From a virus, in IMG/VR virus record IMGVR_UViG_3300018414_000013, positions 1-39,249 of that record: a stretch of DNA of 39,249 nucleotides; one strand, 5' to 3'. A program made the position numbers and the translations under genes. Below the pieces are notes generated by a model. It had not been told where the DNA came from. It was given only the letters and a program-made list of their open reading frames with translations, and made no database searches. Of the stretch, positions 193-15,052 are shown in pieces. Position 1 is the first letter of the stretch. Every line of letters begins with the position of its first letter.

Positions 193-899
193 ATGCGAAC
201 CATGCACCTCTTTGCAGGACACGGCGGGGACTACTTGCTGACCTCATCCTCGGACACACGCCAATTGTCGCTGTTGAGTGGGACAGATACGCCTGCCAAG
301 TCCTCAGAGAACGAGCCGCAGACGGATGGTTCCCAGGATTGCAAGTGTGGGAAGGGGACGTTAGACTGTTTGATCCATCCGAGTACACCGGAGTCGTGGA
401 CTGCATTCATGCAGGATTCCCTTGCCAGGATATTAGCGTCGCCGGTAGTCAAGCAGGAGTTGGCCCAGAAACGCGCAGTGGCCTCTACCGTGAAGTCCTC
501 CGCATCGCTGGCGTGGTTCGACCCAAGCAGTTGTTCCTTGAAAACGTCGCAGCAATCGTTACTAACGGACTCGAAACCGTCCTCGCTGATCTTGCCGCGC
601 TCGGGTATGTATCTGAATGGCTATGTATACGCGCTTCCGACTGTGGGGCTAATCACGAAAGAGATAGATGGTTTCTACTTGCCCACTCCAACGGCTCACA
701 ACGCAAAGGAAGGAGCGTATCCAGCGGAGGGGACGAGAAACACTCCGACTTTGGCATGGGTGATTGGTGGAAAAATAAACCCACAATTTGTGGAGTGGAT
801 GATGGGGTTCCCGGTCGGGTTCACCGTCTCAAAGGATTGGGTAACGCCCAAGTCCCGCTCCAAGCAGCCGCAGCATACCGACTTCTCGGAGGGCAATGA
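193..899 (+). CDS. C5 cytosine DNA methyltransferase, start and body in different frames
   Basis: This is a Dcm-type enzyme that would methylate cytosine C5 using S-adenosylmethionine. Translation from ATG 193 (GGGAGG ribosome-binding site at 179-184) gives MHLFAGHGG, the motif I SAM-binding start. After the G run at 226-229 the homologous sequence continues only in the -1 frame: LLADLILGHTPIVAVEWDRY, motif IV GFPCQ (PCQ at 420-428), motif VI LENV (540-548), motif VIII-like NHERDRWF, and motif X LKGLGNAQVP near 831-860, ending at TGA 897-899. The body frame has no ATG near its beginning. A single extra G would restore one enzyme of about 236 residues, with the short target-recognition region normal for small phage enzymes. 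It overlaps the helicase start by ATGA. Either a true frameshift mutation, a sequence error in the G run, or recoding explains it. Confidence 0.78.
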
Positions 900-912
900 T
901 GCTAGAGCCTAA
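193..912 (+). CDS. Overprinted frame of the methyltransferase locus: PRSGM/PTPTA/EWMMGFP-type protein
   Basis: A 239-codon frame is open from the same ATG 193 through the whole methyltransferase gene and 13 bases beyond it. After the shared MHLFAG start it encodes a different protein. Its second half has LKTSQQSLLTDS, PRSGMYLNG (from 595), LPTPTAHNAKEGAYP (from 679), GGKINPQFVEWMMGFPVGFT (766-825) and a hydrophilic tail. I recall these motifs, in this order and as a contiguous protein sequence, from phage and bacterial proteins annotated DNA methylase or hypothetical. That recollection, together with the absence of stops over 720 bases, suggests a real, selected second product. I cannot name its activity. 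The alternative is that the frame is open by chance and the resemblance is only a shadow that follows from conservation of the other frame. Confidence 0.5.
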   Translation: MRTMHLFAGHGGDYLLTSSSDTRQLSLLSGTDTPAKSSENEPQTDGSQDCKCGKGTLDCLIHPSTPESWTAFMQDSLARILASPVVKQELAQKRAVASTVKSSASLAWFDPSSCSLKTSQQSLLTDSKPSSLILPRSGMYLNGYVYALPTVGLITKEIDGFYLPTPTAHNAKEGAYPAEGTRNTPTLAWVIGGKINPQFVEWMMGFPVGFTVSKDWVTPKSRSKQPQHTDFSEGNDARA

Positions 913-14291: not shown

Positions 14292-14441
14292 ATGGCACGT
14301 ACCAAAAAGACAATGGGGATGATGCACAATCCCAAACCGCTTCCCTTGAACGAGAAATCCAAGACGAAGCAGCCAGAATCTCAAATCCTCCCCACTTTTG
14401 AAAAAGCCGTTCGTCAAAAAAAGCAACTTGCAGGTTACTGA
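14292..14441 (+). CDS. Small basic protein (49 aa) abutting an HNH gene
   Basis: ATG 14292 behind AGGAGA to TGA 14439-14441. The product is MARTKKTMGMMHNPKPLPLN, then a basic KSKTKQPESQ region, ending RQKKQLAGY. It is basic and unstructured in appearance, like small virion or DNA-condensing proteins found between terminase and portal genes. Its stop overlaps the ATG of the HNH endonuclease, and the end of that HNH protein repeats QLAGY with recoded codons. Confidence 0.65.
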   Translation: MARTKKTMGMMHNPKPLPLNEKSKTKQPESQILPTFEKAVRQKKQLAGY

Positions 14442-15052
14442 TGTTAAAAACGTGCCGCAAATGCAAGTGTGAAAAAGATTCTGAACTCTTTTGTAAACAC
14501 AAAGGATGCAAGGATGGAATAAACACAATTTGCAAGGCATGCCATTACGAATACATCAAATCGCAACGCGCTGCGGGCAAACGTAACACAACCGAAGAAT
14601 CTAGAAAATATTACGAAAAGTATCCTGAGAAGAAAATTGCTGCATCTGCTTCTTACAAAGAACGTCACCCAGAGCGGGTAAAAGAATCTCAAGCAAAATA
14701 CCGAGCAAAAAATGCCGGCAAAGAGCGCGAGAGGCGTGAAATTTACCGGAAAGCAAACCCAGAACTTTTTAAGCTGTATGGGACTATTGCTAAAGGGAAT
14801 AGGAGAAAAAGGATTGTTGGCTTTGATAAAGAGCTAACTGATTTTGTAATTAAAGAAGCGCATCATTTGAGGCTTCTTCGCAACAATGTCACTGGAATTG
14901 AGTGGCACGTTGACCACATCATCCCTTTGCAAGGTAAACTTGTGTCTGGGTTACATGTGTGGAATAATTTGCAAGTCATACCAGCGAAAGTTAACATTCT
15001 GAAATCTAACCACCCAATGCCTGAATCTGAAAAGCAGCTTGCGGGCTATTAA
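14441..15052 (+). CDS. HNH homing endonuclease, free-standing
   Basis: A 203-residue HNH nuclease of the phage homing type, expected to cut intron-less or endonuclease-less alleles. The N-terminus has two CxxC pairs (CRKC at 5-8, CKAC at 31-34), a typical zinc-finger for this group. A long basic helical region (YYEKYPEKKIAASASYKERH) follows, and the HNH core near residues 155-190 is WHVDHIIPLQGKLVSGLHVW with NNLQVIPAKVNILKSN. The start overlaps the stop of the 49-residue gene. Compared with neighbouring late genes it is AT-richer, consistent with a mobile gene. The final QLAGY repeats the end of the upstream protein. Confidence 0.92.
   Translation: MLKTCRKCKCEKDSELFCKHKGCKDGINTICKACHYEYIKSQRAAGKRNTTEESRKYYEKYPEKKIAASASYKERHPERVKESQAKYRAKNAGKERERREIYRKANPELFKLYGTIAKGNRRKRIVGFDKELTDFVIKEAHHLRLLRNNVTGIEWHVDHIIPLQGKLVSGLHVWNNLQVIPAKVNILKSNHPMPESEKQLAGY

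Follow-up and report, generated by a model that had tools for sequence, protein, structure and literature searches.

The large subunit of M.EcoHK31I contains motifs I-VIII and X together with a predicted TRD, and its small subunit contains motif IX only (PMC3404938); in M.AquI, motifs I-VIII are split from IX-X, and the beta subunit comprises a distal variable region and motif IX (PMC3404938). The multispecific C5 methylases of Bacillus phages, for example M.H2I, carry several tandem TRDs per enzyme (PMC8936443).

The locus considered here belongs to a virus record of 39,249 nucleotides, analysed at its full length and referred to as the window. On comparison of its sequence with those of its relatives, its product is very probably a heterodimeric C5-cytosine DNA methyltransferase whose subunits are read from overlapping plus-strand frames, alpha from frame M and beta from frame S, the latter being most likely the specificity subunit. 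Judged by the published description, window alpha resembles the large subunit of M.EcoHK31I of E. coli (YGGCCR) in having motifs I-VIII and X without motif IX, which resides on the smaller polypeptide, with the reservation that motif I is out of frame by one base in the window and in frame in the relatives. In contrast, the TRD of M.EcoHK31I is predicted in the large subunit, whereas the constrained TRD-type modules of the window are found in beta (omega of 1.02 for alpha and 0.30 for beta); moreover, the genes here are those of phages, no restriction gene was recognised close to them, the modules occur in tandem, and the two frames have adjacent starts in one clade. The small gene of EcoHK31I is presumably nested inside the large gene, in another frame. 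M.AquI is similar in that alpha carries motifs I-VIII and beta the variable region and motif IX, which also matches gp35/36 of phage Heather and 067a/b of phage ArV1, but M.AquI beta has motif X as well, whereas in the window motif X belongs to alpha and beta is nested. The tandem TRDs of the multispecific Bacillus phage methylases resemble the two to four modules of many relatives of the window, which itself has one, although there they form part of a single chain and frame and here they are encoded across the alpha gene in a second frame. Likewise, gp68 of Hamulus displays motifs I-VIII, five LLPTP modules, an EWMMGWPAGWV motif IX and motif X, but everything is in one frame. A search of open-access literature brought up no description of the nested frame in phages; new here are the widespread nested arrangement in phages, the one to four exchangeable tandem modules in beta and the adjacent starts for both frames in one clade.

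Organization of the locus

Frame M (195-899) encodes a C5-cytosine methyltransferase with motifs I-VIII and X, and its match to Pfam PF00145 (6e-30) ends past motif VIII. The alpha gene occupies 193-899: it starts at ATG 193, is in frame M from roughly position 230 onwards and ends with the stop at 897-899, a 1-nt deletion breaking its frame once. Motif IV (GFPCQDIS) is located at 414-437, motif VI (LENV) at 537-548 and motif VIII (GANHERDRWF) at 645-674, while motif X, as judged from motif reading and AF2, spans 825-887 (RLKGLGNAQVPLQAAAAYRLL) with RLKGLGNAQVP at 825-857. Frame S, displaced by +1 base, is open over 193-912 (239 aa) and matches phrog_1008 (5e-19); it displays SLKTSQQSLLTDS at 535-573, PRSGM from 595, LPTPTAHNAKEG from 679 and EWMMGFPVGFT within 775-825. 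The motifs that a sequence-only reading had assigned to the two frames (GFPCQ, LENV, VIII and LGNAQVP in M; PRSGM and EWMMGFPVGFT in S) were thus all recovered. As motif IX lies in the other frame, the window gene is not a monomeric C5 methylase with motifs I-X in one chain and frame.

In an AF2 model of the alpha protein of a relative (L010), pLDDT was about 90-98 over motifs I-VIII and reached 96 at motif X, and a Foldseek search retrieved M.HhaI (E 2e-13); residues 168-206, the stretch lying over the beta modules, displayed a pLDDT of about 35. Neither motifs nor omega nor AF2 revealed a constrained TRD or a motif IX in alpha itself, and between VIII and X this subunit is probably a disordered, non-conserved tether. 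In two distant loci, L078 (near 2848) and Mycobacterium phage Llama (gp74/gp75; L004:1824-2583), the alpha frame is broken at almost the same place, near motif VI.

A gene for a Cro-like regulator precedes the methylase gene and a helicase gene follows it directly (ATG 896); primase, NinB, terminase, portal and head genes are found elsewhere in the window. Since a scan of 20 further window proteins recognised no restriction endonuclease, the methylase is likely to be an orphan with a protective role, and the phage would use it to shield its own DNA from host restriction. An Endonuclease VII family protein (phrog_1035) is encoded at 14441-15052, between the terminase and portal genes. In P1-like E. 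coli plasmids (matches H208-H217), the stretch that matches a C5 methylase is covered by a gene whose annotation is that of an adenine methyltransferase of the Dam family.

Selection on the two frames

Codons were permuted within M over motifs IV-X in 22 non-redundant relatives picked by their M protein only, and the S frame of these relatives was found to contain 0 stops against 86.8 expected, whereas the third frame, used as control, contained 234 against 222 expected. The S frame stays open in about 60 non-redundant loci, and the idea that it is a frameshift product peculiar to this contig was rejected on that ground. With S fixed, M has 0 stops in the variable region against 160 expected, a count subject to ascertainment because the loci were picked as single M ORFs.

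The position at which codons diverge also changes along the gene. In clade A, which takes in the window, the ratio of third- to first-position divergence in frame M falls from 3.2 (motifs I-IV) through 2.3 and 1.3 to 0.44 in the variable region and 0.48 at motif IX, and in clade B it starts at 3.9 and reaches 0.32 and 0.37 for the last two regions, while in single-chain relatives it remains 2.19 in the variable region. Overlap-aware omega, computed on 27 disjoint pairs over successive regions from I-IV to IX, was 0.11, 0.17, 0.28 (VI-VIII), 1.02 [0.88-1.18] (variable) and 0.46 for alpha, and 0.67, 0.71, 0.50 (VI-VIII), 0.30 [0.19-0.38] (variable) and 0.29 for beta. Where S is no ORF (clade B, I-IV) its omega is 0.65, so that upstream S values close to this figure represent the baseline; accordingly, no amino-acid constraint on S can be demonstrated upstream of motif IV, though clade A keeps the frame open there. 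Both frames are below 1 in VI-VIII. Selection is therefore handed over from one frame to the other: M is constrained upstream of VIII (0.11-0.28) and neutral between VIII and IX, where S is constrained. In the single-chain control the variable region gave the reverse, 0.36 for M and 0.95 for S.

Individual modules behave in the same manner, the type 1 module common to L106 and L107 being 100% identical in S and 72% in M, and the type 9 module common to L091 and L108 being 94% identical in S and 44% in M, where 19 of the 21 differences fall at third positions of S codons. Identity z-scores from synonymous shuffling were dropped as main evidence because shared ancestry inflates the third frame too (z 22, against 30 for S), and weight was consequently placed on stops, codon positions and omega.

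The second frame thus encodes a genuine protein under selection and is no mis-called frame. The sequence-only reading had proposed overprinting with two selected products, and the missing stops, the codon-position switch and the hand-over of omega bear this out. Variation does not keep to the third positions of one frame but moves from frame to frame along the gene, relatives keep the S frame open, homologues of S that are not shadows of a methylase frame exist in Hamulus, ArV1, Heather and Jumbo, and the per-frame comparison of selection separates the two products in the variable region.

Modules and motif IX in frame S

The beta protein is homologous to the TRD-to-IX part of single-chain and split methylases. 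A profile of the nested S frame matched ArV1 067b (3.7e-24), Jumbo (9.9e-20) and Hamulus gp68 (3.6e-14), with 0 matches among shuffled decoys, and aligned INPQFVEWMMGFPVGFT (EWMMGFP; 775-825, read as GVDDGVPGRVHR in the alpha frame of the same bases) with motif IX of Hamulus (RLTAAFPEWMMGWPAGWV), ArV1 (RLSPRFVEWMMG) and Heather (KLSPEFAEWLMG). These matches and the motif IX alignment indicate that S is the TRD-plus-motif-IX part of a C5 methylase placed in a separate frame. In fact, gp68 of Mycobacterium phage Hamulus encodes in one frame motifs I-VIII, the five LLPTP modules, motif IX and then motif X (IGNGVCPQQA), and the methylase is split after motif VIII in Streptomyces phage Heather (gp35/gp36), Arthrobacter phages ArV1 (ORF067a/b) and Chubster (81/82) and Gordonia phage Jumbo (35/36), the second protein of each pair carrying modules, motif IX and motif X.

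The conserved N-terminal segment of beta (SLKTSQ...PRSGM...YALPT, 535-642) lies over alpha motifs VI-VIII, where the alignment and omega (M 0.28, S 0.50) point to constraint on both frames, and the same segment opens ArV1 ORF067b. It is followed by a single PTP module of TRD type at 679-771 (LPTPTAHNAKEGAYPAEGTRNTPTLAWVIGG), recognised by its recurrence, by an S identity well above the M identity and by omega, and over which alpha is a neutral shadow. In relatives, the variable part of S consists of one to four units, each starting with [WLFY]PTP, and module types recur in differing orders and numbers across loci (2-1-0 in L117, 7-1-0 in L106, 9-3-0 in L108, 10-3-0 in L099 and 2-0 in L057). 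These modules would set the sequence that is methylated. The S family had no match in PDB, Pfam or NCBIfam, and AF2 modelled beta alone poorly (pLDDT 58.7), with no PDB match for that model in Foldseek, a result that would not be surprising for a small domain modelled apart from its partner. A scan of bacterial genomes with an alignment of the HNAKE module returned one locus. The nested alpha/beta arrangement is present on a megaplasmid of Methylorubrum extorquens AM1 (L137), where no feature is listed, and in L022 an HNH-endonuclease-like ORF is found in the S frame near motif IX, within beta, with frame M open throughout.

We hypothesize that alpha and beta form one enzyme, in which alpha would be responsible for cofactor binding and catalysis (motifs I-VIII) and would contribute motif X, and beta would act as the small domain, made of an alpha-contacting segment, one or more TRD-type PTP modules and motif IX. 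Two other readings of the second frame were considered. If the catalytic frame alone were translated, the S pattern would be an echo mis-annotated as a protein, the alternative already raised by the sequence-only reading; M is indeed the conserved frame as far as motif VIII, many S motifs of that part, such as KTSQ over ENV and PRSGM over LGY, arise from the bases of M motifs in the shifted reading, and S lacks a family in Pfam, NCBIfam or PDB. Nevertheless, the absence of S stops (0 against 87 expected), the higher conservation of S than of M between VIII and IX, the presence of its modules and motif IX in single-frame and split methylases and the opposite behaviour of the single-chain control make this reading highly improbable, and for 679-825 it is refuted by the codon-position and omega tests: there the situation is inverted, the catalytic frame being the neutral shadow. 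An independent protein regulating or inhibiting the methylase, which had also been suggested as the second product, is equally improbable: nothing speaks for it except co-location and the general possibility that a partner encoded in an overlap acts on alpha, whereas beta is homologous to a part of C5 methylases that alpha itself lacks in constrained form.

The heterodimer, with beta as its specificity subunit, would have several consequences. The locus is a well-supported long overlap of genes on the same strand, beyond the classic examples, in which the passage of selection from frame to frame can be measured. Annotation overlooks beta, for which no Pfam or NCBIfam model exists and whose gene is usually uncalled, and a methylase cloned as its catalytic frame, with its codons replaced by synonymous ones, would lose beta and seem inactive. 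The pair would also be a natural heterodimeric scaffold, the part predicted to choose the target being a separate small protein with exchangeable modules.

Start codons and poly-G tracts

Motif I (LFAGxGGG) is in frame M in every relative covering the region, and the window lacks one base at 222-229 (GGCGG-GGAC against GGCGGTGGAC in L117; in context, GGCGG-GGACTACTT against GGCGGTGGACTCCTT), a deletion that sets it apart from all relatives and shifts both N-termini. As a result, alpha's ATG 193 is thrown into the S frame, and the 239-codon open frame at 193-912 exists, joining alpha codons 1-12 to S. The sequence-only reading was right that S is open from ATG 193 for 239 codons, but this is not its natural start, which is likely to be ATG 188 and/or the internal ATG 409. 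The deletion may be a real mutation or a contig error, both being compatible with a single sequence, and the window copy of alpha is perhaps inactive or mis-assembled; the S frame 3' of 409 is unaffected.

A Shine-Dalgarno-like GGGAGG (178-183) is common to both adjacent starts, a layout repeated in many relatives, and the S-frame ATG beside that of alpha (188-190), from which the frame ends at 241 in the window owing to the deletion, has a matching start in clade A and would be the ancestral beta start. In 37 of the 46 clade-A loci, the alpha start has an ATG or GTG of the S frame only a few bases away, from which S is open as far as motif IV, and S-frame stops in I-IV number 6 in clade A against 50.7 expected and 33 in clade B against 43.5; clade B displays internal start candidates for S, some with GGAGG. 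In HAGFPC, His is encoded by CAT in 33/33 loci, compared with 65/162 for His codons elsewhere; this keeps an ATG in the S frame (at 409 in the window), either as a conserved Met or as an internal start. From this ATG, beta would be a putative specificity subunit of 167 aa (409-912, stop at 910-912), as suggested by the CAT bias and by selection on the S frame. In L013, alpha has an in-frame stop at the codon following VEW, upstream of motif IV, and beta is intact.

Both subunits would thus be started independently at adjacent start codons. Alternatively, ribosomes starting on alpha could slip into S after motif VIII by programmed frameshifting, giving a chain of alpha (I-VIII) and beta (TRD-IX), with motif X supplied by unshifted alpha. 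The motif order would then be canonical, and some relatives do contain poly-G tracts of 9-10, with G9 alleles joining alpha to the S frame, but the adjacent starts kept in most clade-A loci, the open S frame that extends from them, the separate beta ORF of split relatives and the lack of a long slippery tract in the window render this mechanism unlikely.

The tracts are candidates for phase variation. Runs of 9 or more G/C number 10 per 110 kb inside the overlapping genes, where they represent 3 independent lineages, and 2 per 521 kb elsewhere. We tentatively envisage that nested heterodimeric methylases form a large family in phages, in which target-recognition cassettes are exchanged and multiplied in one frame while the other serves as neutral tether, and in which poly-G would switch between nested and fused forms and make specificity phase-variable, a scheme we regard as possible more than probable. 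Within a beta module the tract is G10 in L093-L096 and L115 and G9 in L110, L112 and L114, and other overlapping genes contain G10 (L040) or G9 (L079). In the G9 alleles, which come from three metagenomes, both frames are shifted and alpha is fused to the beta module and motif IX.
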